Part shown: in pieces, positions 10,013 through 63,994 of the stretch
Layout of the letters: every line of letters begins with the position of its first letter
Numbering within the stretch: the stretch's first letter is position 1
Origin: Myxococcales bacterium
Lineage (GTDB): Bacteria > Myxococcota_A > UBA9042
Reading direction: 5' to 3'
Assembly: GCA_009692425.1 (NCBI GenBank)
Contig: SHZF01000005.1
Coordinates: forward strand, 62,001-126,000
Length of the DNA stretch: 64,000 nucleotides
The notes under the pieces: model-generated
What the model saw: the letters and a program-made list of their open reading frames with translations, nothing else
Told to the model about the DNA's origin: nothing
Databases searched by the model: none
Position numbers and translations under genes: made by a program

Positions 10013-10092
10013 CAGCAGGTCCGGGCTCGGCGGGCGAGCGTGCGCGTGCATACCAGCGGAACGCGGGAGGTTCAAGCGCCCACGCGCCGATT

Positions 10093-10107: not shown

Positions 10108-10115
10108 TTTCGGGC

Positions 10116-10143
10116 TTGACAGTTTGACGCGATGCGTTATCTT
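10116..10143 (+). promoter_or_regulatory. Promoter of the phasin-like gene
   Basis: TTGACA (10116-10121), a 16-base spacer and TATCTT (10138-10143) make a good sigma-70-type promoter about 45 bases ahead of the ATG. The second operator sits in the spacer between the two hexamers. Confidence 0.6.
10125..10139. promoter_or_regulatory. Palindromic operator, copy 2
   Basis: TGACGCGATGCGTTA, identical to copy 1 except for one base in the right arm; the match extends outward as TTTGACGCGATGCGTyAT in both copies. Centre-to-centre distance is 32 bases, about three helical turns, so two dimers could bind on one face of the DNA. Confidence 0.65.
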
Positions 10144-10185
10144 GCGTGGGCCGCTGCAGAACGCGTGCGGCGAGGAGAGCGATCC

Positions 10186-10854: not shown

Positions 10855-10904
10855 AAGCCGCCGGGCTGAGGGTCGCGCCTCTGTAGCGCGCCACCTTTTC
10901 GCCA

Positions 10905-11377: not shown

Positions 11378-11413
11378 CCGCGCAGGGCCGCACCCCGCCG
11401 CGGCAACGACCCC

Positions 11414-32204: not shown

Positions 32205-32258
32205 GGGAACCTCGCGGCGGCGACAGAACGCGGGCACCCCGGCAACGATTCACCCGGC

Positions 32259-40348: not shown

Positions 40349-40534
40349 CGTGTCCTCTCCTGGCGGGTCGCAGGTCCTCGCCGTCAACCCGCGCTCACCC
40401 CCAGCCATTTCCATGCACGCGGCGTGCCAAGCGGAGCGCGCGACAACTCGTTCAGAGTACATCACAACGACGTCACGGCGCTGCGGCGTGCGTGTCGGCG
40501 CGGCACGCGATTCTGGCCACCACCGTACACCGCG

Positions 40535-40547
40535 TGCCATTTTGGCA
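40535..40547. promoter_or_regulatory. Palindrome TGCCATTTTGGCA upstream of Fn3/barrel gene
   Basis: TGCCA and TGGCA flank TTT as a perfect inverted repeat in the gap between asd and the Fn3/barrel gene. It is about 190 bases ahead of the Fn3/barrel ATG and 16 bases past the end of asd. It could be an operator or part of a small hairpin; nothing else supports a role. Confidence 0.25.
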
Positions 40548-40562
40548 AGGCGGCGGTTCCCG

Positions 40563-44296: not shown

Positions 44297-44490
44297 GCGC
44301 ACTCCGGCAGGCGCCCGCTCGGGGCAGCCCTCCCACCGCGAAGCTGCGGCAAGGACCACACCGCAAAGCGACGGGAGAGTCCTCACCGCGAAGCCGACGG
44401 AGAGTCCTCACCGCGAAGCCGACGGAGAGTCCTCACCGCGAAGCCCGCGCGAGGCCGTCCGTTGCGCGAAGAAGCTCGCCTCGGCAGAAG
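44297..44490. other. Gap between asnS and HU/IHF gene
   Basis: This gap is upstream of asnS and downstream of the HU/IHF gene. It is dominated by three tandem copies of a 25-base unit (44370-44445), with a degenerate half-copy before them (ccaccgcgaagctgcgg, about 44335). No promoter or terminator is obvious. Confidence 0.5.
44370..44445. repeat. 25-bp tandem repeat, three copies
   Basis: Three head-to-tail units containing AGAGTCCTCACCGCGAAGCC preceded by GACGG; the first has one extra G. They lie in the leader region ahead of asnS. Copy number is likely variable between strains, and the unit contains no obvious palindrome. Confidence 0.9.
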
Positions 44491-44772
44491 CTACTTCTTG
44501 CCGTCGACGCGGTTCTTCAACTCAAGGCCGACCTTGAAGAACGGCATCTTCTTCGGACCCACGGCGACCGCGTCGCCCGTCTTCGGGTTGCGCCCCGTGT
44601 AGGCCGGGTACTTGCGCACGGTGAAGTTGCCGAAGTTGCGGATTTCGATGCGATCTCCCTTCTTCATGGCGTCAACCATCTGCTCGAAGATCTGGTTGAC
44701 CACAGACGCGGCCTTGTCCTTGGTCAAGTTGGACTTCTGGGCCACCGCTTCAATCAGGTCGGACTTCGTCAT
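44491..44772 (-). CDS. HU/IHF-family DNA-binding protein
   Basis: This 93-aa basic protein is a nucleoid-associated HU/IHF subunit that bends DNA as a dimer. It reads 'MTKSDLIEAVAQKSNLTKDK' at the N-terminal helices and carries the arm signature 'RIEIRNFGNFTVRKYPAYTG' with 'RNPKTGD' at the DNA-intercalating tip. The C-terminus 'FFKVGLELKNRVDGKK' is slightly longer than HU and favours an IHF-beta-like subunit. GAGG precedes the ATG. It has its own candidate promoter at 44858-44887. Confidence 0.92.
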   Translation of the reverse strand: MTKSDLIEAVAQKSNLTKDKAASVVNQIFEQMVDAMKKGDRIEIRNFGNFTVRKYPAYTGRNPKTGDAVAVGPKKMPFFKVGLELKNRVDGKK

Positions 44773-44857
44773 GACAAGGTACCTCGGGGATGGACGGGCG
44801 CTGCGCCCGGGCTGCGGATTCGGTACCAAGGGCGCACAAGCCATTGGAACGCGGCGG

Positions 44858-44936: not shown

Positions 44937-47132
44937 CTATTTGCAGAGCTTCGGCACCTGGGGGTACGCCGGGGTCACCAGGTTGCCCTTGGCATCTGCG
45001 CCCTTGCATGGCGTGATCTTGTTCGGATTCCAAGAGATGCGCGCGACGCACCACAGGTCGCCCGTCTTCATCGCCGGTCCGGTCTTGTCGAGATCGGCGA
45101 CGGACTTGTGATCGAGGTACACGCGCACCCGCGGCGTCGACAATCCGTACTGGTTGTCCGAGGCGTAGTAGACGCCGACGAAGTACGCGAGCCCGGGCTC
45201 GGGTGCCTTGATGTTCAGGTTCTCTGGCCCCCAGCCGTCGTAGTCGTCGAGATCGAGGCGCGGATCGTCTTCTGGGTCGCTCAGGTCGCCCCACTTGGGC
45301 AGTTTGTTGAACCAGTAGGCGTCGTCGCACGGCGCGAACCACGGGTCGGGCTCGCCGTTCTTGTCAAAATCCGGTTGGCCGGCTGCCTTGATCGCGTTGG
45401 GGTGCGCGAGGTGCAGATCGACATCGGACCCGGCCCAGGCGCCCGTCTTGTCCTTGCCGGTATCCGTCTTATTGGGGTCGGTGGGCGTGTCCCACGTCAG
45501 TTCGACGTGGATGAGATCGTCAGCGATCACGTTCAGTTCGAAGACGGCCGGCTTGCACGCCGAGACCTTCGAATCGTCGGTCACGTCGAGCGAGAACGTG
45601 TACTTTCCCGAAATATTCGGCTGGAACTTCACGACCTTCGCCTGCGCCGACGGCGCAAACGTCGAAAACGATCCCTGCGGCTGCGCGACCGACCACTTCC
45701 ACGTGTCGATGACATGCCCCTGCGGCGCGCTCGAACAGGCGGCGTCGAGCGTCAGCGGGGTCTGCGGCACCACGTCCTTGCCCGCCAGTACCTTCTGGCC
45801 GTTCGCGTCGTTCTTCAGCGTCAGGCATGCGACCGGGCACGCGGCCTGCACGCCCTCGCCCGACAGCGCGATGTCCGTGGTGACCCCGGCATTCCACGGT
45901 ACGACGATCTTGCCGGTCGCCTTGGTCCCCACCTGGCTCGGCGAGAACGTCACGTAGAACGTACACTTGGCTGTCGGTGGCAGCACCAGCGGCTTCTGCA
46001 CGGTCGGCGCCGCGCCGCCGTCGGTGACGCAGCCGAACGGCTCCACCTGAAAGCCCGCGGTCGAGCCAGGCTCAAGGCCCAGCCCGGTCAGCGCGACGTC
46101 TTCGGTGCCGCACGACTCCAGCGAGGCCTGCAACTTCGCCTGGGATCCGACGGGCACGGCACCGAACTCGACCGACAGCGCCGAGGCCTTCAGGCACGGG
46201 CCCGTCGCGTTCGCCTTCAACGGAACCTGCAGCGTGCCGATGCCGGCGTCGTTCGTCGTGATCCGCAAGGTTGCCACCAGCTTTTCCTGCTCCGCGATCG
46301 GCAACAGGCGCACGGTCATCTCCAGCGTTTCGTTGGCGGCCAGGGCGAGCTTCGGCGTACCGGCAAACGGCTTCGTCGGCGTCACGGTCGGGCCGCCCGC
46401 GACCTGGACCTCGACCGGCATCGACGGCGCGACGATCTCGAGGGAATCGAACACGAGTTGGCCAGTGCCGGCGTTCGTACACTTGAACGGCGCCTCGGCT
46501 CCCTGGTTCTTGGCGACCTTGCCGAAGTCGACCGAGGCCGGGACGCACACAAGCTTCGGGCTGCCGATCTGAACCTTGAATTCCAGCGTGCGCGGCGCGT
46601 CCTTCCACAGCGGATCGCCCTCGACCGTCACGTCGAGGCGTGCCTTGCGGGGGGTCGCCGCCGTGCCGCGCGTGTACGTCACGGTCAGGGCCGTAGACGC
46701 CACGGAATCCTTGGGCTTGCACGCCGCGTCGAGGCCTGCCGGCACCAGCACCGGCCACGTCGCTTCGGCGCACGGCTTGCCGCCGGGCCCCTTGCAGGTG
46801 AACTGCGGACCCGTGCTCACGACCTTGCCGTCGGCGTCGGTTTCGACCAGCGCCACCGACTTTACCGTGAGTGGCCTGGCCGAGATCGGCGGCGCCGTAT
46901 TCGACAGGACCAAAACGAATTCCCGCACACTGCCCGTCGCCATCGGCGCGCCGTCGATGACCACGCTCGCGCTGGCCGCCGCCCCAGCCGGGTCGCGCAC
47001 TTCGAGCTTTGCCGCCGTCTCGATGCGCGTCTTGCCGCTCGGGCAACCGGCGACGCTGCCGGTGCCGGGCTCTTCGGTCGTGCATGCGCTGGCGAACGCC
47101 ACCGCAACGAGACAGCTACTGATCGCGTTCAC
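44937..47132 (-). CDS. Paralogous envelope lipoprotein, copy 3
   Basis: This 731-aa lipoprotein is the last of three tandem relatives. The GTG start overlaps the stop of copy 2 (GTGA). A short signal ends in 'FASAC' with Cys17. The body has Hydin/ASPM-like immunoglobulin domains of the 'choice-of-anchor' kind (about residues 170-480; 'VDFGKVAKNQGAEAPFKCTN', 'VEFGAVPVGSQAKLQASLES') and a PKD-like domain. The C-terminal 220 residues are a conserved unit with 'IHVELTWDTPTD', 'GSDVDLHLAHP', 'FAPCDDAYWFN', 'LDLDDYDGWGPENLN' and 'YFVGVYYASDNQYG'. The acidic motifs suggest a calcium-binding, DUF2135-like beta domain. Cell-surface or periplasmic scaffold is likely; function unknown. Confidence 0.75.
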   Translation of the reverse strand: MNAISSCLVAVAFASACTTEEPGTGSVAGCPSGKTRIETAAKLEVRDPAGAAASASVVIDGAPMATGSVREFVLVLSNTAPPISARPLTVKSVALVETDADGKVVSTGPQFTCKGPGGKPCAEATWPVLVPAGLDAACKPKDSVASTALTVTYTRGTAATPRKARLDVTVEGDPLWKDAPRTLEFKVQIGSPKLVCVPASVDFGKVAKNQGAEAPFKCTNAGTGQLVFDSLEIVAPSMPVEVQVAGGPTVTPTKPFAGTPKLALAANETLEMTVRLLPIAEQEKLVATLRITTNDAGIGTLQVPLKANATGPCLKASALSVEFGAVPVGSQAKLQASLESCGTEDVALTGLGLEPGSTAGFQVEPFGCVTDGGAAPTVQKPLVLPPTAKCTFYVTFSPSQVGTKATGKIVVPWNAGVTTDIALSGEGVQAACPVACLTLKNDANGQKVLAGKDVVPQTPLTLDAACSSAPQGHVIDTWKWSVAQPQGSFSTFAPSAQAKVVKFQPNISGKYTFSLDVTDDSKVSACKPAVFELNVIADDLIHVELTWDTPTDPNKTDTGKDKTGAWAGSDVDLHLAHPNAIKAAGQPDFDKNGEPDPWFAPCDDAYWFNKLPKWGDLSDPEDDPRLDLDDYDGWGPENLNIKAPEPGLAYFVGVYYASDNQYGLSTPRVRVYLDHKSVADLDKTGPAMKTGDLWCVARISWNPNKITPCKGADAKGNLVTPAYPQVPKLCK

Positions 47133-49534
47133 TTGCACTTGCCACCCAGCACGGCCGAGAACTTCGCCTTGTAGTCGGGGGTCACCTTGCCGTTCGTGGC
47201 GGGCGAGCCGTCCCACTCCACCAGCGTACCGGCCGGCCACTCGATGCGCTTGGTCCACCACAGGTCGCACTGGTTCATCTTGGCTTGCAGCGTCGCCTTG
47301 AGCGCGCCGAGGATGTAGATGCGCACGGTCGCGGTCGAAAACCCAAACGTTTCCGAATCCCAGTAGTGGACGCCGACGCCGTACGTCTGCCCGGCCTCGG
47401 GCGTCTTGAGGTTCAGGTTCTCCGGGCCCCAGCCGTCGGTGTCGTCGAGGTCGAGGCCCGGGTTCGTGTCCGGGTCGACCGCACTGCCCCACGTCGGCAG
47501 CGCGTTGTACCAGAACGTGTCGTACTGCGGATGGAACCACGGGTCCGGCTTGCCGTCCTTGTCCAGGTCCTGCTGGCAGGCGCACGGCTTCCCTGCGCAC
47601 ATTTCCGCAGGATCCTTGCAGAGTTTCGCCAGCGCCGCCTTCGGGTGGACGAAATGCAGGTCGAGGTCGGCCCCCTTGTGCGGCCCCGTGTCGGTCTTGT
47701 CCGCGTCTCCCGGCGTGTCCCACAGCAACTCGACGTGGATGCCGCCGTCGGGCACTACCAGCAACTCCTGCTGCGCGACCTGGCACGCAGACTTGTCCGC
47801 GTCGTCGACGACGTCGAGTTGGAAGCGGTAGACGCCCGCCACGTTGACTTGGACCTGTTCCTTGGCCGGCTTGCCCGGCGACGTCACCATCGTCTTGGCG
47901 CCGAATTCCACATTGGCGACGCCGGCATTGGGGAAGAAGCCCAACCCCTCGGCCCCCTCGGGCGACTTCAGCAGCGACCACTTGTACGCCTTGATCTGGT
48001 GGCCGGCGGCGGCAAAGGATTGGTCGGCCTTCAGGTGGATCACCGTCTGCGGCACGACCTCCTCGCCTTCGATGAGCGTGATGATGGCCGTCGGACACGC
48101 CGTCGCCGTGCCCCACACACGCAGCTTGACCTGCTTGTCGGGCGCCACCGAGTTGTCCGCGATCTTGAGAGCGCCGGTGTACGGCTGCGCCTTGCCGTCC
48201 TGGCCCTTGTTCTCCGACTCCGGCGTCGCCACGAGCTTGACGATCTCCGAGCCGTTGACCTTGATGCGGATCGGATTGCTGGCCGTCACACCCTTGCCGC
48301 CGAGTGCCGCGATGCCGTCGGTGGCCACCGCAAACACGCCGGCTGCGTCGTCGGCGATCTGCAGGGCGCTGACCTCGACTTCAGCCGAGCCGCAATTCTT
48401 GAGCGTGACGTCGCGGGCCGCGGGCTTGCCGACCGCCTGAAAACCGAAGTTCAGCTCAGGCGACGGCGTCACCTTCAGGCACGCGGCATTCTGGTTCGCT
48501 TTCAGCGTGATCGTCTTCTTCTGCTGATCGGCGCTGAACACGTCGAGCGTCGTCAGGTGCGGGCTCGGGTCGATCGCCGCGAACGACACCTTGCCACTGA
48601 CCGCCTTGTCCTTCGCGATCGTGATCTTGGGGTCCAGATCGAGCGCGGCGCCGCCCTTGTAGGTCTTGCCCTCGAGTTCGAGCGACCACGGTTTCTGGTC
48701 GTTCTTGGCCAGTTCGATGCGCGTCACCACGAGGTCCGCGTCGCCTTGGTTCTGGATCTTGAACGGCTCATCGCGCACGCCGTTGACCTTGACGGTGCCG
48801 AAATCAAGTTCGGCGGGCAGCACCGCGAGTTTCGGGTTGCCCGTGGCTGTCACAAAGCGCAGGCGGTAGGGCGTCGGCGTCGGATTCTGCCCGCCCGTCG
48901 TGTAGGCCTTGTCGCCAGTGGTGTGCAGCACGAGCGTCACCGTGCGCGGCGCGGCATCCGCCGGCTTCTTGAAGCGGACCTTGAGTTGCTGCTGGGCGGC
49001 CTTTTTCGTCCCCGTCGCGCAATCCGGGTCGAAGCCGGGCGGGATCAGCGTCGGCCACGCCACCTTGTCGCACGGGACCTCGGCGCCGTCCTGCTGTGCG
49101 ATGCACGTGAACGGGTTGCCGGCGTCTGCCGTGTTGGCCGGCGGTGTGAACGCGAGTTCGAGCCCCGTGATCACCAATTCCTTGGCAGCCGCGGCGTTGG
49201 CGACGTTGAGGATGTCGACCGTGACGTCGAGCGTCTGGCCCGCGGTCAGCGAGCCCCCTGTCATCTCGACGCTGCCGTCATGGGCGCGCACCTTGTCTGC
49301 GGCGCGCACTTCGAGCTTCGCGTTGCGATCGATGCCGGGGCCCGCCGCACCGCTACCGCACTTGGCCGGCAGGGCCGTTCCGCCGTCCGCCAGGGCGCCC
49401 GCGTCCGCGCCGCCCGAACCCTCGCCGCATCCGAGCGCCAGCATGGCTACCAGCACGGCGACCAGCACAGCCACCAGTACGCCCGGCGACCGTGCGGGTC
49501 GAGCCGCGCAGCAGCGTCCTCGTCGTTCGTTCAT
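47129..49534 (-). CDS. Paralogous envelope lipoprotein, copy 2
   Basis: This 801-aa lipoprotein has a strongly hydrophobic signal ending in 'MLALGC' (Cys36). An N-terminal beta domain ('NAKLEVRAADKVRAHDG') and two Hydin-type domains ('AELDFGTVKVNGVRDEPFKI', 'LNFGFQAVGKPAARDVTLKN') come next, then a PKD-like region and the shared C-terminal unit. That unit reads 'IHVELLWDTPGDADKTDTGP', 'GADLDLHFVHP', 'LDLDDTDGWGPENLN' and 'YGVGVHYWDSETFGFS'. A Cys-rich insertion ('CKDPAEMCAGKPCACQQ') sits inside the C-terminal unit, absent from the other copies. AGGAAA precedes the ATG at 49534. It lies 50 bases after copy 1 and overlaps copy 3, so all three form one operon. Confidence 0.75.
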   Translation of the reverse strand: MNERRGRCCAARPARSPGVLVAVLVAVLVAMLALGCGEGSGGADAGALADGGTALPAKCGSGAAGPGIDRNAKLEVRAADKVRAHDGSVEMTGGSLTAGQTLDVTVDILNVANAAAAKELVITGLELAFTPPANTADAGNPFTCIAQQDGAEVPCDKVAWPTLIPPGFDPDCATGTKKAAQQQLKVRFKKPADAAPRTVTLVLHTTGDKAYTTGGQNPTPTPYRLRFVTATGNPKLAVLPAELDFGTVKVNGVRDEPFKIQNQGDADLVVTRIELAKNDQKPWSLELEGKTYKGGAALDLDPKITIAKDKAVSGKVSFAAIDPSPHLTTLDVFSADQQKKTITLKANQNAACLKVTPSPELNFGFQAVGKPAARDVTLKNCGSAEVEVSALQIADDAAGVFAVATDGIAALGGKGVTASNPIRIKVNGSEIVKLVATPESENKGQDGKAQPYTGALKIADNSVAPDKQVKLRVWGTATACPTAIITLIEGEEVVPQTVIHLKADQSFAAAGHQIKAYKWSLLKSPEGAEGLGFFPNAGVANVEFGAKTMVTSPGKPAKEQVQVNVAGVYRFQLDVVDDADKSACQVAQQELLVVPDGGIHVELLWDTPGDADKTDTGPHKGADLDLHFVHPKAALAKLCKDPAEMCAGKPCACQQDLDKDGKPDPWFHPQYDTFWYNALPTWGSAVDPDTNPGLDLDDTDGWGPENLNLKTPEAGQTYGVGVHYWDSETFGFSTATVRIYILGALKATLQAKMNQCDLWWTKRIEWPAGTLVEWDGSPATNGKVTPDYKAKFSAVLGGKCK

Positions 49535-49583
49535 GTGCGTTTCCTGGCCGGTTGCTCGATCCTGCCGAGGGCTTGATCGTGCA

Positions 49584-52001
49584 CTAGGGCTTGACCTTGC
49601 ACTGGGCCGGCTTGGCGCCCGCCGCCTGGGCTGCGAACGCCTTGTTCTCGTAGCACTTCGTGATGCAGAAGTCGCCCGACGGCTTCCACATCTGGCCGCA
49701 ACCGGCCTTGCCCGCACAGTACTTCGGATCGTTCGCGACGTTGCCCGCGCACACTGCCCCCTTGGTCTGGTAGCACTGCGTGAAGACCGGCAACTTCGAG
49801 CCCTTCAGCTCATTGGGCCAGTTGATCTTGCCGACGTACCACATGTCGAGAAGGTCCATCGGCACCTTCGTGATCTGCAGGGCGAGCGTGCCTTCGAGGT
49901 AGATCGACACCGTCGCGTACGACAGGCCGTAGCCGTGGTCGTGCCAGTAATGTACGCCGACCGGGTACGCGATCGGGCTTGCCACGTCGCCTTCGGGCGA
50001 CTCGAGGTTCAGGTTCTCCGGGCCGGCGCCGTCGGTATCGTCGAGGTCGAGGCTGGGGTCGTCCGGCGTGGCCGGGTTGGAACTGCCCCAGTTCGGGTTC
50101 GGATTGAACCAGAACGTGTCGAACGGATTGTTGAACCACGGGTCCGGCGTGCTGTCGCAGTCGATGTCGGGGCCGGACGCCAGCGGGTGTGAGAAGTGCA
50201 AGTCCATGTCCGCGCCGGCGGCCGGGCCGGAGTCGGTCTCGTCCGGGTCCGAAGGCGTCGCCCACAGCAGTTCAACGTGGATCGCGTTGTTCGGCACCAC
50301 CAGAACATCGATGCAGGCCGGCTGGCACGACTTCGCGTCGTTCTGGTCCCACACCTCGAGGCAGAACTTGTAGTCGCCCGACGCGTTCGCCAGAAAGGTC
50401 GGGTTCGCAAACGTCGCATTCGGGATGAACGGCTGGTTCGAGCCTGCCGGCTGCTTCGCCGTCCACTTGTACTTCTTGATGGTCCCGCCACCGGGCGCGA
50501 CCGACTGGTCGCCCTTGAGGTGGAGTTGCGTCTGCGGGATGACCTCCTCGCCTTCCTTGACCGACACCTTGGCGAGCGGGCAGGTCGATTTCACGCCCGC
50601 GCCCTTGGCCTGCACCTTGCGCACTTCAAAAGCGTTCGAGGTGACGCCGATCATCGCGATGTCGAATTCGCCGTCCTTCGAGATGTCTTCAGGCACGTAC
50701 TTCACGGTGAAGGTGGCGTCCTTGCCGATGCCGATCTTGATCGGCTTGTCTTTCGACGGCCCCTTGATGTCGACGTCGGGATAGCCCTTCTTCGTCTCGA
50801 CGTAATCTAAGGCGAACTCGTTCGAGGTCGAGCCCTCCTTGAGGAATTCGATCTTGTCGACGATCAGATCGACCGAGCCGCAGTTCTTGATCTGCACGTT
50901 GCGCACTTCGGAGTTCTGCAGCAGCACGCCGCCGAACGACACCTCCTTGTCCGGCTTGAGCAGGATGCACGGCACCGCCGTGTTCGCGCGCATGCTGACC
51001 GTCGTGCCCGTCTGGGCCGCCGGGTCGTTCGAATACAGCACGATCTGGCCTTCCTTCTTCTTGTCGTCTTCCGGCTTGAACCCGACAGAGAACGTGCGCT
51101 GCTTGCCCGGTTCGATGTCAAGCGGCGGGTCGAACGTGACGGCCGCGTCGGGCTTGTACACGGTGCCGCCGCCTGCACCGTCGAGCGTCACCGAGAACGT
51201 CGGTGCCGCCGACACCCACTTGAATCCCGCAATCGACAACAGCGCGTCGCCGAGATTGCGCACCGCGAACACTTCTTTGCCATCGGACTTCGGCGGCACG
51301 TACGGGAAATCGACGGTGTCCGGCGCGACTGCGATCTTCGGCTTGCCCTGTACGGTCTTGAACGTCACCTTGAACTCGCCGTTCGTGCTGACCAGCGCCG
51401 GTACGTTGTTGGCGACCCGGATCCGCAGCACGGCTTCGCGGTCCTTGTCGTCGAATCGCGTGAAACGCAACAGGAACGTCTCCTTGGCCGCGCGCCCCGA
51501 CGCCTCGTTGGCGTACTGGCCTGGCACCACCTTCTTCCACTTGCCGTCCATGTCTTCGCACTTCACGGTGGCGTCTGCATTCCAGCACTCCAGCGCGTGG
51601 GCGGTGTCTTCCTTGGGCGACTTTGCCGTGTAGTCGAGCCGCACGCTGAGCAGCACGAGGTCGGCCGCCGACAGGGCCGAGATCGTGTTCAGGATTGTGA
51701 ACGCGGTGTCCTTCGCCGTCTTGACGGAGCCGACCTCGACCGCGATGACCGAATCCTTCTTGAGGACCTTCTCGGTGCCCGGATCGCGCACTTCGAGCGC
51801 GGCGCTGCACTCGATCAGGGTCGAACCGCTGATGCAGGTTTTCACGCTTCCCGTTGCGCCGCCCACCGTGCCGCCACCAGTCACTCCGCCGGAGCCCGTG
51901 CTGCCGCCTGCGCTGATCGCGCCGGGCGTTTCTGCCGCGCAGGCCGAGAGGTGGGCGGCGGAGGCGCAGAGCAGCAGGGTGTAGAGGGGGCGGCGGAGCA
52001 T
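49584..52001 (-). CDS. Paralogous envelope lipoprotein, copy 1
   Basis: This 805-aa lipoprotein is first in the leftward operon. The signal ends in 'AHLSAC' (Cys21), followed by a Gly/Thr/Ser-rich linker. It has the same plan as copies 2 and 3: N-terminal beta domain, Hydin-type domains ('VDFPYVPPKSDGKEVFAVRN', 'VSFGGVLLQNSEVRNVQIKN'), a PKD-like domain ('IKKYKWTAKQPAGSNQPF') and the conserved C-terminal unit ('IHVELLWATPSDPDETDSGP', 'LDLDDTDGAGPENLN', 'YPVGVHYWHDHGYG'). It carries an extra Cys-rich C-terminal tail with about eight Cys. GAGG precedes the ATG. A good promoter lies 120-148 bases upstream, divergent from the vWA/barrel/TPR operon, so the two sets may be made together. Confidence 0.75.
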   Translation of the reverse strand: MLRRPLYTLLLCASAAHLSACAAETPGAISAGGSTGSGGVTGGGTVGGATGSVKTCISGSTLIECSAALEVRDPGTEKVLKKDSVIAVEVGSVKTAKDTAFTILNTISALSAADLVLLSVRLDYTAKSPKEDTAHALECWNADATVKCEDMDGKWKKVVPGQYANEASGRAAKETFLLRFTRFDDKDREAVLRIRVANNVPALVSTNGEFKVTFKTVQGKPKIAVAPDTVDFPYVPPKSDGKEVFAVRNLGDALLSIAGFKWVSAAPTFSVTLDGAGGGTVYKPDAAVTFDPPLDIEPGKQRTFSVGFKPEDDKKKEGQIVLYSNDPAAQTGTTVSMRANTAVPCILLKPDKEVSFGGVLLQNSEVRNVQIKNCGSVDLIVDKIEFLKEGSTSNEFALDYVETKKGYPDVDIKGPSKDKPIKIGIGKDATFTVKYVPEDISKDGEFDIAMIGVTSNAFEVRKVQAKGAGVKSTCPLAKVSVKEGEEVIPQTQLHLKGDQSVAPGGGTIKKYKWTAKQPAGSNQPFIPNATFANPTFLANASGDYKFCLEVWDQNDAKSCQPACIDVLVVPNNAIHVELLWATPSDPDETDSGPAAGADMDLHFSHPLASGPDIDCDSTPDPWFNNPFDTFWFNPNPNWGSSNPATPDDPSLDLDDTDGAGPENLNLESPEGDVASPIAYPVGVHYWHDHGYGLSYATVSIYLEGTLALQITKVPMDLLDMWYVGKINWPNELKGSKLPVFTQCYQTKGAVCAGNVANDPKYCAGKAGCGQMWKPSGDFCITKCYENKAFAAQAAGAKPAQCKVKP

Positions 52002-52120: not shown

Positions 52121-52149
52121 ACTGTAGTAGCGAGGGCAGGACGCGTCAA
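52121..52149 (-). promoter_or_regulatory. Promoter of the lipoprotein triplet
   Basis: On the minus strand TTGACG (52149-52144), exactly 17 bases and TACAGT (52126-52121) form a strong sigma-70-type promoter. The leader to the ATG at 52001 is about 110 bases. Confidence 0.65.
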
Positions 52150-52213
52150 CCAATAGCACCGCGAACCGACAGCGGCGAGGGGCCCGCAGCCCTCGCCAGC
52201 GCAAGGGTTCTGC

Positions 52214-52243
52214 TTGACTTGGCGACGACGGCGAAGGAAGAAT
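52214..52243 (+). promoter_or_regulatory. Candidate promoter of the vWA/barrel/TPR operon
   Basis: TTGACT (52214-52219) with AAGAAT at an 18-base spacing lies about 84 bases before the ATG of the vWA gene. The -35 is good and the -10 poor. The hairpin at 52174-52197 lies just upstream. Confidence 0.3.
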
Positions 52244-52326: not shown

Positions 52327-54411
52327 ATGCAAGTGCCTTCGATCGCGTCTCGTCCGCCCGCGCTGCCGGCCCCGGTTGGCCGGCGCCGCGCACTGTGGCT
52401 GACCAGATCGCTACTGTGGCTGACCAGATCGCTACTGTGGCTGCCCAACTCGCGGCTCTGGCTGCCCAACTCGCGGCTCTGGCTGCCCAGCTCGCTGCTG
52501 CTGGCCCTGGCGCTCGGGGTCTGGACGATCTCCGGTGGCCTCGCGTCGTGCGATTCGACCGCGAAGTTCACGGTGCCGGACCGCCAGTTTGCGAGCATCC
52601 AAGTGGTGTCGGGATTCCTGGCGCACTATGACTCCCAGACGCGCAAGACGACGCGGGTGTGCGGCCTGCCGCGCGAGGGAGAGGCCGACGTTGCGCCCAA
52701 TGCGATCGAGCTCACCGTCAACTTCTTGTCGAGCGAACTGACCGGGCGCATGAACCTATGCAAAGAAGCCGGGGAAAACGATTTCGATCGCTCCATCAAG
52801 GAGGGTGAACTCGTCGACCTCAAGCGCGTCAAGGCGACGGTGCCGGGCCAGAGCGTCTCGGCAAAGATGTTCACGTTGGAAGCAAAGTGCCTGTCACCGC
52901 GCGTGTCCCAAGAACAAGACTGCGCGTCCGCCTTTGCCAAGCAGGCGCTCGTCGGCTCCGAGATCCGCTACGTGAAGCACGCCGATCGCTGCGACCCGAT
53001 CCGGCCCGACACCGCGATTGACGTCGCCCTCGTAGTCGACAACAGCGGGTCGATCTCGGGCCTCGTCGATGCAAACACGAAACTGGAAGAGCAGGAGTCG
53101 GTGCTCGGTGCCAACATCCCCAACGACCGCACCGAAGTGATGTCGGACCCGTTCCGCACGCGCATCAAGGCCGCGACGAACTTCCTCGATCTGCTGAATC
53201 CGCGCGACAAGGTGATCACGTATTTCTTCGACGAGACGGGCTGGAACATCGCCTGCAGCGACGCCTTCGTGTGCTGCCCGACTTCCCTGCCGGACGGCCA
53301 GGCGTGCGACGGCAAGAAGTGCGCCGGGCCCCACGACAAGTCGACGTGCGCGGCCGGCGAGTCGTGCCGGTCGGACGTGCGCTGCACCAGCAAGGATGCT
53401 TGCCAGACCGACGATTTCGTGACGCTGCCAAACAAGGCTGAAGGTTCGCTCGACAGCCAGTCGAAGCGCTGCTTCGGCAAGGTCGGCGAGAAGGGCCACT
53501 GGCACAAGAATGGTCTGGAATTGAAGGTCAAGAATGCCGCAACCGGGCGCGCCAGCGTGTGGCAGACGATGCACGAGGCCTACACGTTCCTGACCGGCAC
53601 GGCCGCCGACGGCAACGCAGGCGAACCGGCCAGCCGCGCCAAGCACATCGTGCTGCTCGCGGACGGCCCCGACACGTGCCTGGAATCCGACGACTTCAAC
53701 TGGACCGACCTGGCAGGCAAGAACGGCAAGTGCCGACTCCAGTGCAACCTGCCCGACCTCGACAAGGCGCGCTACGAGAAGCTGCTGGAGCGCATCCAGA
53801 CCGACAAGGCCAACGTGGTGGTGCACGTCGTGCAGTTCCAGTCGGTCGGCTACATGAATCCCGACCCGCGCATGCAGGAGATCGCCTGCCGCACCGGGGG
53901 CACGTACCAGTTCGTCAACACGCGCGAGTCCCCGACGCAGCAGGCGTCGTCTTTCGAGCCGATCGTGACGGCGATGAACCGGGTGCGCTTCACTTTGTCG
54001 GGCAGTTGGCGCATCACCTTCACGGCCGACGTCTTAGGCCAAGCCAAGGTGGGCGCGCCCGACAACCAGTTGCCAGTCACGCTCGGCGCGATGGTCGCGC
54101 TCGATGGGTCGTTGCGCTTCAAGAACGCCGAGTTCGCGAGCCTGCAGAGCGTCTACGAGACGCAGCAACGCGACTGGGAGTTCAGCTTTTCGGGCAAGGA
54201 AGACCGCCGCATGTTGATGCGCCGGGCGTGCCTCGACGAGAAGGACTGCGGCGGCGGCGACGGCGAGTGCGGCAAGAACCGCTGCACGAAGGCCGGCTTG
54301 TGCGAGGCGAAAGTGGCGCCGAACCAACTCGTGTGCTCGAAGGGCGCCAGCACCAAGTGCTGCAAGGGCGAGTGCAAGACCGGCGCGTGCACCGACGCCT
54401 GCAAGAAATGA
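52327..54411 (+). CDS. vWA-domain lipoprotein with repeat-containing signal
   Basis: This 694-aa protein begins at an ATG with a G-rich ribosome-binding site; further upstream ATGs are in frame. The N-terminal 75 residues carry five tandem heptapeptides LWL-[TP]-x-S-x and a hydrophobic signal ending in the lipobox 'GGLASC' (Cys75). A von Willebrand A domain (about residues 230-540) has the MIDAS 'DVALVVDNSGSIS', 'KHIVLLADGPDTC' and is interrupted by a Cys-rich insertion ('CCPTSLPDGQACDGKKC'). A Cys-rich tail 'CGGGDGECGKNRC' ends it. The stop overlaps an ATG (ATGA) but the better start of the next gene is 33 bases on. It heads the barrel/TPR operon and may be a metal-dependent adhesion or docking lipoprotein. 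Confidence 0.75.
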   Translation: MQVPSIASRPPALPAPVGRRRALWLTRSLLWLTRSLLWLPNSRLWLPNSRLWLPSSLLLALALGVWTISGGLASCDSTAKFTVPDRQFASIQVVSGFLAHYDSQTRKTTRVCGLPREGEADVAPNAIELTVNFLSSELTGRMNLCKEAGENDFDRSIKEGELVDLKRVKATVPGQSVSAKMFTLEAKCLSPRVSQEQDCASAFAKQALVGSEIRYVKHADRCDPIRPDTAIDVALVVDNSGSISGLVDANTKLEEQESVLGANIPNDRTEVMSDPFRTRIKAATNFLDLLNPRDKVITYFFDETGWNIACSDAFVCCPTSLPDGQACDGKKCAGPHDKSTCAAGESCRSDVRCTSKDACQTDDFVTLPNKAEGSLDSQSKRCFGKVGEKGHWHKNGLELKVKNAATGRASVWQTMHEAYTFLTGTAADGNAGEPASRAKHIVLLADGPDTCLESDDFNWTDLAGKNGKCRLQCNLPDLDKARYEKLLERIQTDKANVVVHVVQFQSVGYMNPDPRMQEIACRTGGTYQFVNTRESPTQQASSFEPIVTAMNRVRFTLSGSWRITFTADVLGQAKVGAPDNQLPVTLGAMVALDGSLRFKNAEFASLQSVYETQQRDWEFSFSGKEDRRMLMRRACLDEKDCGGGDGECGKNRCTKAGLCEAKVAPNQLVCSKGASTKCCKGECKTGACTDACKK
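52393..52497 (+). repeat. 21-bp tandem repeat in a signal peptide
   Basis: Five 21-base units: two identical (ctgtggctgaccagatcgct, then a), then three with ctgcccaactcg or a close variant. They encode LWLTRSL, LWLTRSL, LWLPNSR, LWLPNSR and LWLPSSL just before the hydrophobic core of the vWA lipoprotein signal. Copy changes would keep the frame but alter the length of the signal. Confidence 0.9.
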
Positions 54412-54443
54412 TGGGCACCGGCGTGCGGCCAGGGAGACTCGGA

Positions 54444-55253
54444 ATGCGAACAGTGCGACAGACAGGGGCGGTTGGGACGGCGCTGGTAGCCATGGTCGGC
54501 CTGGCGCCCAGCGCGTGGGCGGCGGACGGCAGCGTGACACCCATCGACAAGGAACTGGAGAAGTACTGGAACGTCGAGCAGGCCGTGCCCTCGCTGCAGA
54601 ATCCGCTGTACGAACGCAAGGGCGGCGTCGAAGCGACGCTGTATGGTGGAATGCTTCCCAACGATTCGTATTTCGTGCCGATCTCGGCCGGCGGTCGCGT
54701 CGGATACTTCTTGACGGACACGCTGGCGCTCGAAGGCGGATTCTCCTACCTGATCAACGCCCGCGCCGACAAGGATGGCAGCGAACTGCGCGATTTTCTG
54801 GTGTGCGCGAACAAGCAGTCGGCCGCCCAGACCGTCAAGTGCGTCGACCTCGCCAAGGGCGCCAAGCAGCCGCCGCACCTGAAGTGGCTGGCGTCGGTCA
54901 ACGCGCACTGGACGCCGGTGCACGGCAAGATCGGCATCTTTGCCGCAAAGGTCGCGAGCTTCGATCTCGGCTTCAACCTGGGGCTCGGCATCGTCAACGG
55001 TGACTTCGATCCTTCGGACATCGACGCGACCAACCTGCCGGGGGAAAAGACGGTGCAGCCGGCGCTGCGCTATGGTGCCCACTGGGGCGCAGGTTTCCGC
55101 TTCTTCCTGACACGCTGGGCCAACGTGCGGCTGGACTACCGCCAGACCGGCTACCGCGCGGGCAACACCTACGCGGACGACGGCCGGCTGGGCGATTCGT
55201 TGTGGTCCTTCCCGGCGGAAATCACGCTGGGTGTCGCGTTCCTGTCGAAGTAG
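54444..55253 (+). CDS. Outer-membrane beta-barrel protein, GltB/GltA-like
   Basis: This 269-aa protein has a signal peptide ('AVGTALVAMVGLAPSAWA') and a barrel of alternating strands ('GGVEATLYGGMLPNDSYFVP', 'GYFLTDTLALEGGFSYLIN', 'NVRLDYRQTGYR'), ending in a short strand with Phe-Leu-Ser-Lys. It fits the myxobacterial 'OMP_myx' outer-membrane barrel family. Size, type and pairing with the next barrel match GltB/GltA of the Myxococcus xanthus gliding machinery; that link is from memory and by context. I take the ATG at 54444, preceded by AGGGAG, rather than the overlapping ATGA at 54408. Confidence 0.7.
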   Translation: MRTVRQTGAVGTALVAMVGLAPSAWAADGSVTPIDKELEKYWNVEQAVPSLQNPLYERKGGVEATLYGGMLPNDSYFVPISAGGRVGYFLTDTLALEGGFSYLINARADKDGSELRDFLVCANKQSAAQTVKCVDLAKGAKQPPHLKWLASVNAHWTPVHGKIGIFAAKVASFDLGFNLGLGIVNGDFDPSDIDATNLPGEKTVQPALRYGAHWGAGFRFFLTRWANVRLDYRQTGYRAGNTYADDGRLGDSLWSFPAEITLGVAFLSK

Positions 55254-55278: not shown

Positions 55279-56265
55279 ATGCTGAACACGAACCGCCAAC
55301 TCACCGCGCGCACGGACCGGCGCGTCAGGGGCCGCTGCTGGCTGGCCGCGTTGGCCATGGCGGCGCTCGGGTTTGCGCCCGCCGCGTGGGCCCGCGAGGC
55401 CGCCGTGGGTGACCGCGCGCCGAACGCTGCTGCCAGCGACCCGCCAAAGGATGACGCCGCCGCGCCAGCCGATGCGCCACCCGCGGCCGACCCGGCACCC
55501 GCGGCCGACCCGGCACCCGCCGACGCGGGCACGCGCGATGCTGCCAAGACGACCGAACCGACGGCAGGCGCGGCGCCCGACGTTGCGGCGCCCGGCATGG
55601 ACCTGTACGGCGTCGCCGACGAGGGTGTACCGCTCGGCAGCCGCATCGAGTGGGCTCAGCGGCGCGAAATCCGCATCATCCAGAAGCGCGCCGTGCTGAA
55701 AGAAGGGCGCTTCGGCGTGTCTGTGCTGGCCGGCGTCGTGCCCAACGACGACTTCTGGACCTACGTGACGCCCGGTCTCGGTGTGCAGTACTACTTTTCC
55801 GAAGACCTCGCGCTGTCCGTCCACGGGGCCTACACGTTGGACCTGCCGACCACGCTCAAGGCAGGCCTGGAAGACCCGCGCCCCTACGGCCCCGGCCTCA
55901 TCGTCCGCCTGCCGCAGACCCTGAATGCGTGGGGGTCGGCGGGCCTGGACTGGAACCTCGTCCACGGCAAGGTCGGCTTCTTCGGCACGGGGCTCATCGA
56001 GTTCGACGGCGCACTGACCTTCGGCGTCGGCGCGGTCCGCACGAAGATACAGGACCTCGCCAAGCCGTTGGTGTCGCAGATCGACCCGGCCGGCAACGTC
56101 GGCGTCCAGGTGCAGTTCTACCTGACCGATGCGTTCTCGCTGCGCCTCGACTTCCACCAGTTCTTCTATGCCAAGTTGGCCGGCAAGCACCCCGGCTCAG
56201 GCGGCGTGTCGCACCCGCTCGCGGTTGGCCTGTCGTTCACCTACATGACGGCCGGCCAGAAGTAG
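55279..56265 (+). CDS. Outer-membrane beta-barrel protein, paralogue of upstream gene
   Basis: This 328-aa protein has a signal peptide, a long Ala/Pro/Asp-rich linker (about residues 40-105, with a repeated 18-base unit encoding P-A-A-D-P-A) and a barrel related to that of the preceding gene. Shared landmarks are 'GRFGVSVLAGVVPNDDFWTY', 'YYFSEDLALSVHGAYTLDL', 'WNLVHGKVGFFGTGLIEFDG' and a closing 'FSLRLDFHQFFY'. The corresponding positions upstream are 'PNDSYFVP', 'WTPVHGKIGIFAAKVASFDL' and 'NVRLDYRQTGYR'. GGAGGA lies 8 bases before the ATG. Two adjacent related barrels followed by a TPR protein is the GltB-GltA-GltC arrangement. Confidence 0.7.
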   Translation: MLNTNRQLTARTDRRVRGRCWLAALAMAALGFAPAAWAREAAVGDRAPNAAASDPPKDDAAAPADAPPAADPAPAADPAPADAGTRDAAKTTEPTAGAAPDVAAPGMDLYGVADEGVPLGSRIEWAQRREIRIIQKRAVLKEGRFGVSVLAGVVPNDDFWTYVTPGLGVQYYFSEDLALSVHGAYTLDLPTTLKAGLEDPRPYGPGLIVRLPQTLNAWGSAGLDWNLVHGKVGFFGTGLIEFDGALTFGVGAVRTKIQDLAKPLVSQIDPAGNVGVQVQFYLTDAFSLRLDFHQFFYAKLAGKHPGSGGVSHPLAVGLSFTYMTAGQK

Positions 56266-56300: not shown

Positions 56301-58271
56301 ATGTTCCGTCTCCATCTGAACCGCCCCCCGCGAGGCTTGCTTGCGGTCGGCATGTTGGCCGTGCTGGCCTTGGCGGGTCCCGCTGCAGCGCTCACCAAGG
56401 AGGAGATCATCACGCTCGTCGGTCTCGAAATCCCGGACGACCAGATCATCAAGAAAATCCAGAAAGACAGCTCTGTCTATGACCTGCAGCCCGCCGACGT
56501 GCTCGACCTGAAGAAGAAGGGGGTGTCGGAGAAGATCATCCGCTACATGGTCCAGACCAAGAAGGCGGGCGTGGTGGCGGCGGCGGCGACGTCGGGGGCC
56601 AAGAAAGAGGAGAAGAAGCGCGAACTTTCGGCAGCGGAGCAGGCGGCCGAAGAGGCCAAGCTCAAGGAGGAGTCGGCCAAGCTGCTGCGCGATCAACAGG
56701 AACGCGAGGAGCGCCAGCGCAACGCCTTTGCCGACCGCGTCTTGCAAGCGGGCCAGAAGCTCGCGGCGGACGGCGAGTGGGTCAAGGCGATTCAGGTGTT
56801 CACGAAATTCGTCCAAGAGGGCGTCGGCGGCATTCCGTATGCGCCTGACAGCGATCAGGCCTACACGGCGAAGTACGGCATGGCGAACGCCTTGGCACGC
56901 GCGGGGCTGCACCAGTCGGCGGCGAACCTGCTGCGCGAGGTCGTCAGCGCCGGGCCGGAAAAAGTGTTTTTCGTTCCGGCATTCAACCAGTTGCGCGACC
57001 TGCGCCGCAAGATCAACTACCGCCCGCCTGAGTTGGAAGACCTGACACGGTTCTCGGTTGTGAACACGGACGCGGCGTTCCAGTCGGGCTTCTACTACTT
57101 CGTCGGCGAGTTCTTGCACGACTTCGGCCTGTCCACCGACGCCAAGCCGTACCTCGAGAAGGTGACGGGCGATTCGGCCGACTTTCCGCGCGCGCAGTAC
57201 CTGTTGGGCCTGATCGCGTTTCAGGACGACACGCTGTCGACCCAGCAGAAGGTGGCGGATTCGTCGATCGCATTCCAGAAGGCGGTCGTCAGCGGCGAAA
57301 AGCTGCCCGATGGCGCGCCGATCGTCGATCTCGGCTACCTGAGCCTGGCGCGACTGGCCTACGAGTACCAGCAATATGACGCGGCGATCTATTACTACCG
57401 CAAGATTTCCAAGACCTCTCCCAAGCTCGCCAACGCGTTCTACGAGGCGGGCTGGACCTATTTCTTGAAGGGCGACATCAGTCGCTCGCTCGGCACCTTT
57501 CACGCACTGCACAGCCCGTACTTCGCCCACCATTTCTACCCTGAACTGTGGATTCTCGAAGCGGCGCTGTACGTAAACACCTGTCGGGTCGACCAAGCCG
57601 AACTTGCGCTCAAGATGTTCGACGACCATGTGCTGGTACTGGCGCCGCCGCTGCGCGACTTCTTGAAGCGCAACAAGCGGCCCGAGGACTTCTACGCAGC
57701 GCTGCTCGAAACCGTGAACAACAAGAGTGCCGCGAGCCTGCCCCGCAAACTGGTGAGTCCGGTGCTGGAGAATGTCGAATTCTACAACCTGCACCAGACC
57801 ATCAAGCAGATCGAGCGCGAAGAGGTCCAGGTCAAGGCGAACCTGCAGGCGCTCGGCGCATTTGGCCAGGACCTGTTGGGCCGTCTGGGCCAGTTGCGCG
57901 TCGAACGGATCAGCGAGGCTGGCGTCGTCGTGCAGAAGACGCTGCGGGCCCTGCAGAAGGAACTCGACAACCTCATGGACAAGGAAGCGGAATTGCGTAT
58001 CGACCTGCAGGAGGCCGTGCTGCAGCGACTCGACAAGGAGATGCTCGACACGCAGGCCCAAAAGAAGCAGGACGCCCAGGCGGCGGCCGCGCGCCAGGGC
58101 ACCATCGCCATCGCCGGTTCGGACGCGATGGTGTGGCCGTTCGAGGGCGAGTTCTGGAAGGACGAGATCGGCGCATACCGTTCGTATCTGACAAGCCAAT
58201 GCAAGGAAGAGGAAGCGGAGGGTCAGGGCAGCGTCGTTACGCAGCCCTCAGCCAGCGAGGATGGCAAATAG
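56301..58271 (+). CDS. Periplasmic TPR protein, GltC-like
   Basis: This 656-aa protein has a signal peptide ('LLAVGMLAVLALAGPAAA') directly followed by a small helical motif ('LTKEEIITLVGLEIPDDQII') repeated in many uncharacterised envelope proteins. A charged coiled-coil (about residues 100-145) and TPR repeats (about 145-430; 'VFTKFVQEGVGGIPYAPDSD', 'SLARLAYEYQQYDAAIYYYR', 'AFYEAGWTYFLKGDISRSLG') come next. A second coiled-coil region (about 500-600) ends in 'VWPFEGEFWKDEIGAYR'. Length and position after two barrels match M. xanthus GltC (about 670 aa). GGAGGA precedes the ATG. It probably bridges the barrels to periplasmic partners. Confidence 0.7.
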   Translation: MFRLHLNRPPRGLLAVGMLAVLALAGPAAALTKEEIITLVGLEIPDDQIIKKIQKDSSVYDLQPADVLDLKKKGVSEKIIRYMVQTKKAGVVAAAATSGAKKEEKKRELSAAEQAAEEAKLKEESAKLLRDQQEREERQRNAFADRVLQAGQKLAADGEWVKAIQVFTKFVQEGVGGIPYAPDSDQAYTAKYGMANALARAGLHQSAANLLREVVSAGPEKVFFVPAFNQLRDLRRKINYRPPELEDLTRFSVVNTDAAFQSGFYYFVGEFLHDFGLSTDAKPYLEKVTGDSADFPRAQYLLGLIAFQDDTLSTQQKVADSSIAFQKAVVSGEKLPDGAPIVDLGYLSLARLAYEYQQYDAAIYYYRKISKTSPKLANAFYEAGWTYFLKGDISRSLGTFHALHSPYFAHHFYPELWILEAALYVNTCRVDQAELALKMFDDHVLVLAPPLRDFLKRNKRPEDFYAALLETVNNKSAASLPRKLVSPVLENVEFYNLHQTIKQIEREEVQVKANLQALGAFGQDLLGRLGQLRVERISEAGVVVQKTLRALQKELDNLMDKEAELRIDLQEAVLQRLDKEMLDTQAQKKQDAQAAAARQGTIAIAGSDAMVWPFEGEFWKDEIGAYRSYLTSQCKEEEAEGQGSVVTQPSASEDGK

Positions 58272-61960: not shown

Positions 61961-63994
61961 ATGATTCGCAACGAACCCGCCGCGCCCGCACGCTCGATGC
62001 TGCGCGGGCTCGCCTCTGCGGCCAGCGTGCTCGCCGTGTCAGTGTCGGCCCAGCCGGTGTGCGCCCAAGAAGCCGAGTACCTGCAAGGCATCGCCGACAA
62101 GGCCCAGGATGCGTTCCGCCAGGGCCTCGAAGCCGCCCTGCGCAAACTGCCGAAGTGCAGCCCACAGCGCCTGCTCGAGAACGGCGAGTGCTGCAACCTC
62201 GGCGAGGCCTCGCTCGGCAAGACCTGCGTCACGATCGCGCCGCAGCAGTGCGCGGCCGCCGTGTACGATGCGCCCGAAACCTGCAACCTGAACCGGTGCG
62301 CGAAGTTCGTGAAGGAAATCCATGAGGACGAAAAGGACAAGGACGGCAAGCCCGTGCCCGAACTCGACGACGCCGGCCAGCCCACGGGCAAGAACCGCGT
62401 CAAGACCGTGGCCGTGCCGTGCAACCCGTGGCCCGATGGCAAGCGCGACCTCACTTGCGAACTCGACACGTACGAGTGCAAGCCCGACGAACTCGGCGGC
62501 CGCACCGATCGCTGGTGCGCCGACTGGGTCAAGGAAATCCCGCTGCCCCCGCAGGTCGATGCCGCCGGCAAGCCCGTCGTCGGCGGGCCCGTGTCGGTGA
62601 TCGTGCGCTGCAAGCCCGGCTCGGATGACTGCTTGCTCGACATGCGCGAGTGCACGGGCGAGGAACTCAAAAGCGGCCGTTCCGATGGGGCCGGGCCGTG
62701 CAAGATTGGAGAATACATCGACGCCGCGAGCGGCAAATGCACGACATCGAAGTGCCCGACGCACTGCATGACGGCTGACGGACGCTGCGCGAAGTGCGGG
62801 CCCGACTACCAGGGCGCGGCAGAAGCATTCCGCGCGGCGGTCAAGGAAGACGACCGCTTCTATGAAGGCTATTTCAACCTCGGCATGTCGTACGAGCGGC
62901 TGGGTAAATACGCCGACGCGATCGCCGCCTACGAGGAGGCCAAGGGCATCGAACCGAAGGACGACCGCGAGCGCAACCTGCAACTGTCGGCGCAGGCCTA
63001 CATCGCGCGCGGCTGGCTGGCCGAGGCGCGCCGTCTGGTCGAAGCCGGCGAGAAGGGCAAGGCGAAGGAATTGCGCGAGCGGGCCCGCAGCGTGTGCGAG
63101 TCGATCCGCGGCCAGGACCCGGACAACTCGATGGCGAACGTGGCCCTTGCGCTGTACTGGGTCGATGAGTCCGAACAGCCGAATCACTTGGAACTGGCCG
63201 AGACGTTCGTGCGCCAGGCGCTGCGCAACAACCGGGAGGACACGATCGCGCTGAACATCCGCGGCCTGTTGAACCTGAAAACGAACAAGAACGAGATCGC
63301 GCGCTGGATCCTGGAAGAGAAGGTGCTCGCCATCGATCCGGCCAACCCCGAGGCGCTCGCCAACCTGGGCCTGGCCTACGTGCGGCTCGGCGACCTGCCC
63401 AAGGCGGTGGCGGCGTTCGAGCGCGGCGTGCGGCTGAACCCGAATGCCACGTCGGCGCGCCTGAACCTCGGCGCCATCTACCTGGAGTACCTGAACTACC
63501 GCGGCGCGGAGCAGCAGTACAAGGTGGCGCTCCAACTGGAACCGCAGAACCTCGAAGCACTGACGGGCTACGCGCTCTCGCTCGAGGGGCGCCGCGAACC
63601 GAAGAAGGCTGCGGAACTGTACGAGAAGGTGCTGGCCAAGGCGCCGGAGCGCCACGCGATTCTGTGCCGGCTGGCGATCATCTACGGCAACAAGCCGTTC
63701 AACGACGACGACAAGGCGCTGACGTTGTGGAAGCGCTACCTCAAGGAATCGGGCCTGCCGCCCGCCGACGCCGCCAAGGCCGAACTCGACAACCTGCGCG
63801 TAGAACTGAAGAAGATGGAGAAGCCACCGAAGAAGGCTCCGCCCGGCTGGGCGCAGCAGAAGTTGGACCTCACGGCGAAGGAGGTGGCGCAGACGACGCT
63901 GTGGAAGTCCGTCCTCGCGATCCAGAGCCGCATCGACGCGATCGAAAAGGGCCGCGAACTGCAGCAGCAGGCGAACCAGCCGGCGCCGAAGTAG
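61961..63994 (+). CDS. Exported TPR protein with Cys-rich N-part, GltE/AglT-like
   Basis: This 677-aa protein has a signal peptide ('LASAASVLAVSVSAQPVCAQ'). A Cys-rich region (about residues 50-285) has some 20 Cys ('NGECCNLGEASLGKTC', 'TSKCPTHCMTADGRCAKC'). Eight or so TPRs fill about 285-600 ('YEGYFNLGMSYERLGKYADA', 'PEALANLGLAYVRLGDLPKA', 'TSARLNLGAIYLEYLNYRGA'). GGAGCG precedes the ATG, 14 bases after the previous stop, so it is in the same operon. In M. xanthus AgmU/GltD is followed by the TPR protein AglT/GltE; this gene takes that place. The large Cys-rich insert is not something I know from AglT. The gene is complete and ends six bases from the window edge. Confidence 0.65.
   Translation: MIRNEPAAPARSMLRGLASAASVLAVSVSAQPVCAQEAEYLQGIADKAQDAFRQGLEAALRKLPKCSPQRLLENGECCNLGEASLGKTCVTIAPQQCAAAVYDAPETCNLNRCAKFVKEIHEDEKDKDGKPVPELDDAGQPTGKNRVKTVAVPCNPWPDGKRDLTCELDTYECKPDELGGRTDRWCADWVKEIPLPPQVDAAGKPVVGGPVSVIVRCKPGSDDCLLDMRECTGEELKSGRSDGAGPCKIGEYIDAASGKCTTSKCPTHCMTADGRCAKCGPDYQGAAEAFRAAVKEDDRFYEGYFNLGMSYERLGKYADAIAAYEEAKGIEPKDDRERNLQLSAQAYIARGWLAEARRLVEAGEKGKAKELRERARSVCESIRGQDPDNSMANVALALYWVDESEQPNHLELAETFVRQALRNNREDTIALNIRGLLNLKTNKNEIARWILEEKVLAIDPANPEALANLGLAYVRLGDLPKAVAAFERGVRLNPNATSARLNLGAIYLEYLNYRGAEQQYKVALQLEPQNLEALTGYALSLEGRREPKKAAELYEKVLAKAPERHAILCRLAIIYGNKPFNDDDKALTLWKRYLKESGLPPADAAKAELDNLRVELKKMEKPPKKAPPGWAQQKLDLTAKEVAQTTLWKSVLAIQSRIDAIEKGRELQQQANQPAPK

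Follow-up and report, generated by a model that had tools for sequence, protein, structure and literature searches.

Comparison with the Myxococcus xanthus gliding machinery

In Myxococcus xanthus, the outer-membrane part of the gliding machinery is made up of GltA, GltB and GltC (PMC4488436, PMC12288465, PMC13104615), and the vWA-containing lipoprotein CglB, a surface adhesin loaded at the outer membrane in Glt assembly, is kept there by the Glt complex and provides the grip on the substrate (PMC12288465, PMC13104615). CglC, the product of a gene adjoining gltBAC, is an outer-membrane lipoprotein that faces the periplasm and is needed for barrel insertion (PMC4488436). The surface grip of gliding-type machines is known mainly from CglB of this organism. 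The stretch analysed here, referred to as the window, comprises 64,000 nucleotides (C38:62001-126000) of a 4.9 Mb genome, and contains an operon of three lipoprotein genes (A, B and C) divergent from a series of Glt-like genes. The latter resembles the Agl/Glt system (GltA/GltB/GltC with CglB, CglC and CglD) in that two OMP_myx_plus barrels, a GltC-like protein, TPR proteins and vWA proteins are encoded, and the association of outer-membrane lipoproteins with the machine is a further point of likeness. However, neither the GltC-like nor the CglD-like protein reaches its NCBIfam equivalog cut-off (197 bits against 450 for NF033756, and 36 bits against 400 for NF033765, respectively), and no described Glt or Cgl protein with an ASH-ASH-PKD-DUF2135 architecture was found. 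Because of these two scores we do not count the locus as proven to belong to the Glt gliding machinery. Rather, A, B and C, together with a fourth paralog D, are well supported as conserved members of a Glt-like outer-membrane module.

The lipoprotein operon and the neighbouring Glt-like operon

The initial annotation described three paralogous lipoprotein genes at 44937-52001 with close or overlapping junctions, and this description holds. A, B and C are complete open frames on the minus strand, each with a signal peptide and a lipobox (LSAC, ALGC and ASAC), in agreement with the claimed location in the cell envelope. The spacer between A and B measures 49 bp, and C, which has a GTG start, shares its first 4 bp with the end of B. 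Pairwise identities are 31-33% over 670-780 aa (E 1e-72 to 1e-109), and the three are thus true paralogs. The family is nevertheless larger than the three members first noticed, as D is found 12.6 kb from A, shortly after the window ends, and a fifth member stands alone on another contig of the same genome (C105). Near this solitary gene, the ORF list (the only source for this observation) contains a Cys-rich repeat protein of about 1,680 residues (L036 10905-15956; G000 contig C105). Downstream of the operon in the window, and on the same strand, lies a gene for an HU-type DNA-binding protein (44491-44844, minus strand), followed by one for a class II (D/K/N-type) aminoacyl-tRNA synthetase (42929-44386, minus strand).

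Table 1. Features of the lipoprotein operon and of the divergent Glt-like operon (positions are those of the window)
Feature	Position	Strand	Remarks
CTD of C	45024..45545	-	
Lipoprotein C	44937..47132	-	731 aa; GTG start; lipobox ASA-C at residue 16
CTD of B	47231..47773	-	
Lipoprotein B	47129..49534	-	801 aa; lipobox ALG-C at residue 36; A-type architecture
CTD of A	49812..50315	-	residues 563-730 of A; divergent DUF2135, TerD-like predicted fold
Lipoprotein A	49584..52001	-	805 aa; lipobox LSA-C at residue 21; same strand as B and C
Intergenic region, two promoter-like sites facing apart	52121..52243	.	consensus match only
Promoter-like site towards A	52149-52121	-	consensus match only
Promoter-like site towards vWA gene	52214-52243	+	consensus match only
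vWA protein (vWA1), 31 Cys, MIDAS-type motif DNSGS, lipoprotein-like N-terminus	52327..54411	+	start approximate
OMP1, outer-membrane beta-barrel (OMP_myx_plus, GltA/GltB type)	54408..55253	+	TIGR04565 E 1e-21, over cut-off
OMP2, outer-membrane beta-barrel (OMP_myx_plus)	55279..56265	+	TIGR04565 E 7e-19, over cut-off
GltC-like TPR protein	56301..58271	+	NF033756 E 6e-58
TPR1, TPR protein, 1193 aa	58365..61946	+	position conserved
TPR2, TPR protein, partly GltE-like	61961..63994	+	
Lipoprotein D, fourth paralog	about 64555-66888, beyond window	+	follows TPR2
CglD-like vWA protein	about 66929-70327, beyond window	+	follows D

Approximately 325 bp separate A from the divergent vWA gene at which the plus-strand series starts (Table 1), and the two promoter-like sites between them were the ones found in 8 kb, against 0.4 expected. 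The vWA1 protein matches Pfam VWA_3 weakly (E 0.16) and none of the NCBIfam models at E 1. Two barrels of the GltA/GltB type adjoin the lipoproteins, both scoring over the cut-off of TIGR04565, a model that is broader than GltA/GltB. The CglD-like protein matches the CglD model with E 1.6e-9 and a MIDAS adhesin model with E 1.8e-14, and its gene is followed, past the window end, by that of a further ASH-like protein (ASH2). An arginine deiminase-like gene (L035 14422-15795) comes after ASH2 on the same strand and may be co-transcribed with the Glt-like series. In the genome, GltJ gave only partial matches (E about 1e-10) with a model that also matches control genomes; TolQR-type proteins are likewise not specific for the AglRQS motor. 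A second GltC-like gene (G000 contig C77:19392-20810) is closer to the M. xanthus GltC model, with 251 bits. This locus was considered as the true home of the system and rejected, as it holds only GltC and a TPR protein, with no barrels or lipoproteins nearby.

Domain architecture of the lipoproteins

The Hydin-type and PKD-like domains originally ascribed to all three proteins were recovered with Pfam and NCBIfam, in the form of HYDIN/ASH-type Ig domains, choice-of-anchor D and a PKD domain of K319L-like type. In A, the lipobox is followed by a Gly-rich linker, an N-terminal beta domain, two ASH/Hydin Ig domains, the PKD domain, the C-terminal domain (CTD) and a small C-terminal tail. An AlphaFold2 model of mature A, built with 48 relatives (mean pLDDT 88.6, pTM 0.63), shows a 31-residue low-confidence Gly-rich linker and then what appear to be five successive beta domains (N-terminal, ASH1, ASH2, PKD and CTD) ahead of the tail, and thus contains two ASH-like domains. 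The N-terminal beta domain has no Pfam match. Long Gly/Ser/Thr linkers after the lipid-bearing Cys are found in the lipoproteins, which are multi-Ig proteins of 75-84 kDa. Among orthologs of A, identity amounts to 74% in the CTD and 68% in the PKD domain, compared with 34-39% in the N-terminal and ASH domains, and the orthologs of B, C and D follow the same trend. The far end of the chain is therefore the most constrained.

Choice-of-anchor D and HYDIN-ASH Ig proteins (NF012200, PF22544, PF15780) resemble the stalk domains of the lipoproteins. However, the choice-of-anchor D model spans the stalk only and does not include the CTD that defines these proteins; B and C score above the cut-off of NF012200, and A and D below it. 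The main Foldseek matches of the whole A model were ciliary central-apparatus proteins, a resemblance that was set aside because it probably stems from the ASH/HYDIN stalk rather than from function. Nothing significant was matched in the viral structure library, nor did the searches turn up a solved structure closely related to A. Each domain type is already known or related to a known family. No earlier description was found of their combination or of its phylum-wide tie to a Glt-like module, and a literature search on choice-of-anchor D lipoproteins in myxobacteria returned no paper.

The C-terminal domain is a divergent DUF2135 domain

The C-terminal approximately 170 residues of A, B and C are matched by no Pfam or NCBIfam model. 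All three carry D-x-D-L-H and LDLDD-x-DG-x-GPENLN motifs, and the C-terminal domain that had been delimited from DxDLHxxHP and LDLDDxDGxGPENLN is confirmed by an alignment of 35 diverse members, in which D36, D38, H40, D50, D52, D58, D66, D92, D93, G96, G98, P99 and E100, including the acidic residues of these motifs, are invariant. The Pfam model of DUF2135 fails to match 34 of the 35 members, with a best E of 0.22 and none over the gathering score. However, profile comparison by hhalign of the CTD with DUF2135 sequences from other Myxococcota gave 94.6% (E 6.7e-8) over 91 columns, pairing D-x-DLH with D-x-DLH and DD-x-DG-x-GPEN with D-x-x-x-G-x-GPE, whereas four other domains of the same lipoproteins, run as controls, all stayed below 1%. 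By this profile evidence the CTD is a divergent DUF2135 domain (Pfam PF09906, YfaP), with which it shares a hydrophobic-x-W strand, D-x-DLH, L-x-x-D-x-x-x-G-x-GPE and Y-x-V-x-x-x-Y; it differs in that identity is only 24-26% and an acidic stretch of about 40 residues (D-x-D-x-D-G-x-x-DPWF...W) is inserted. No earlier description of this relation was found, nor any paper on the function of DUF2135/YfaP. The finding gives DUF2135 a context.

Modelled alone, the CTD is predicted with a pLDDT of 84 and a pTM of 0.83. Its structural matches include 3ibz (Z 9.9), 2qng (8.5), 2qz7 (8.2) and 2kxt (7.3), TerD-type chains taking ranks 1, 2, 4 and 5, i.e. four of the best five (Z 7.3-9.9), and the record title of 2kxt names "calcium-binding properties". 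Z values of 7-8 often arise for models that lack a clear relative, and the TerD values of 7-10 are modest, lending support and not proof. Foldseek with the CTD model gave no match with E <0.001, the best being 2qng at E 0.017. The calcium-binding TerD family (PF02342) thus provides the nearest solved folds to the predicted CTD fold, with the difference that TerD is a stand-alone protein and the CTD a lipoprotein domain. TerD was rejected as a sequence relative, hhalign giving 0.5% (0.54%, 4 columns), and the likeness is one of predicted fold only. Neocarzinostatin matches in a PDB sequence search (E 0.57-0.71) were taken as chance, and a search for a solved DUF2135 structure found none, the best match being a weak one to subtilisin-like proteases (E 0.08). 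Judging from the acidic motifs and the fold resemblance, the CTD probably binds calcium via D-x-D-x-H and LDLDD-x-DG-x-GPEN. A calcium-type character of the domain is supported, namely that of a divergent DUF2135 domain with a TerD-like predicted fold, and calcium dependence becomes directly testable.

Conservation within the order

The organisms of the order are known here as metagenome-assembled genomes. The CTD family is present in all 22 of them and a GltC match in 21, the exception being a genome that is 58% complete. When 73 full-length members were placed in a tree, the order's A proteins formed a single clade, as did its B, C and D proteins, with SH-aLRT values of 93-100 for A, B and C. 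On every long enough contig, read as far as the contig or fetched stretch extends, A-B-C lies divergent from vWA1-OMP1-OMP2-GltC-TPR1-TPR2-D-CglD-like-ASH2, and of the 18 genomes that allowed a judgement, 17 have the three genes side by side. In the remaining one (G008), A and B lie divergent from that series and C is absent, the pair running directly into the HU and tRNA synthetase genes, whose order is retained. The trio is thereby supported as a long-standing unit of three orthologous groups. It had also been proposed that the close junctions imply fixed stoichiometry, with A, B and C perhaps forming a hetero-trimer on the cell surface. The tight operon and the contiguity of three old orthologous groups fit an obligate 1:1:1 complex, but G008 dispenses with C, other families have two tandem members and not three, D adds a fourth paralog to the cluster, and some members stand singly in unrelated contexts. 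We therefore retain the old contiguous unit and regard an obligate 1:1:1 trimer as very unlikely.

Distribution across the Myxococcota and co-inheritance

Outside the class, four genomes of two families (f29 and f42) have a Glt-like module divergent from paired CTD lipoproteins. In three of them (G117, G071 and G135; L278, L279 and L282) the pattern is [TPR1-GltC-OMP-vWA1] divergent from [CTD lipoprotein, CTD lipoprotein, CglD-like, ASH], and in the fourth (G054; L280) the vWA1 and lipoprotein side is seen before the contig ends. In other families of the own class, a lipoprotein lies beside vWA1 and a barrel at two loci (L091 and L098), and beside CglD-like and ASH2 genes at seven (L089, L090, L093, L095, L096, L105 and L106). 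These seven, at which the linkage occurs with neither GltC nor a barrel in the fetched stretch, and the many CTD genes elsewhere in the genome would be in line with the lipoproteins and the CglD-like vWA protein forming a free-standing module for calcium-dependent adhesion or prey recognition, to which the Glt-like genes are mere neighbours. However, the genomes concerned carry the window-type GltC elsewhere (e.g. G030, G056, G077 and G090), and the divergent pairing with Glt-like genes recurs in distant families, so that we consider a free-standing module rather unlikely.

At the level of families, window-type GltC (E <1e-60) and a strong CTD occur together in 15, the CTD only in 4, GltC only in 0 and neither in about 41. 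The corresponding Fisher p of 7e-11 over all families, and 6e-7 outside the own class, is rough, since the thresholds were set after seeing the data, the family table was read by hand and the families are not independent. The CTD as such is found in 210 of 377 Myxococcota genomes, often in several copies, many of which are solitary or in tandem arrays away from Glt-like genes (e.g. in family f18, and the solitary copy on C105); the CTD is thus not specific to the machine. One such array (L284; G027, 4071-12723; family f18) has four CTD proteins in tandem, the stretch containing no Glt-like gene. A large multi-copy family with solitary members and tandem arrays could also consist of unspecific envelope or coat proteins in a coincidental position, but the synteny repeated across families and the family-level association make this explanation hardly credible. 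Most genomes of family f17, which we take to be Myxococcaceae, are without the CTD, and the domain is therefore probably not needed for Myxococcus-type gliding. The initial statement that no function is described has to be amended, since synteny and phyletic pattern link the trio to a Glt-like outer-membrane module.

Proposed role

We propose, with a probability of about 0.5, that the lipoproteins belong to a Glt-like envelope machine as outer-membrane components stabilised by calcium, and act as adhesins or as partners of adhesins. A, B, C and D would be sorted to the outer membrane and anchored there as rods consisting of the lipid anchor, a flexible Gly-rich linker, four Ig-like beta domains and the CTD, and would form part of the outer-membrane and surface portion of the adjoining envelope-spanning machine, together with the vWA lipoprotein, the two GltA/B-type barrels, the GltC-like, TPR and CglD-like vWA proteins. 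The role is suggested by a lipid-anchored rod whose conserved tip is of calcium type and which is encoded alongside barrels and vWA adhesins: by analogy with CglB, the lipoproteins would be exposed on the surface and most likely act as adhesins themselves or position the vWA adhesins of a force-transmitting envelope complex, with the CTD as the binding end of the rod.

Alternatively, the lipoproteins could face the periplasm and serve as assembly factors or stator-like scaffolds, as CglC does for GltA/GltB, CglC being encoded beside gltBAC, periplasm-facing and needed for barrel insertion (PMC4488436). However, CglC comprises about 170 aa and is quite unlike the large multi-Ig lipoproteins, and the Gly/Ser/Thr linkers and the probable calcium domain fit the outside better, albeit in a suggestive manner only. 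We regard a periplasmic orientation as unlikely. Homology of the lipoproteins to GltK/CglC was also considered and dropped in view of the 170 aa of gltK/cglC.

A conserved family of sizeable lipoproteins that accompanies a GltA/B/C-like module in other families of the phylum provides concrete candidates for the missing surface parts of such machines. More tentatively, much of the Myxococcota may carry a second, undescribed Glt-type trans-envelope machine, the outer-membrane head of which would consist of calcium-dependent Ig-rod lipoproteins (two to four paralogs) and two vWA adhesins. Such a machine, if it drives motility, would represent a focal-adhesion system of bacteria, in lineages in which gliding has never been studied.

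Other genes in the window

Two further minus-strand frames of the window have unusual domain contents. A 1,970-residue frame at 26340-32249, adjoining SRP54, contains bacterial alpha-2-macroglobulin domains (bMG10 with E 1e-23, bait region and TED). At 38537-40657, parts of the MXAN_2561 type (MYXO-CTERM anchored) and of the MXAN_2562 type (outer-membrane barrel), each with a family model of its own, are fused in one frame.
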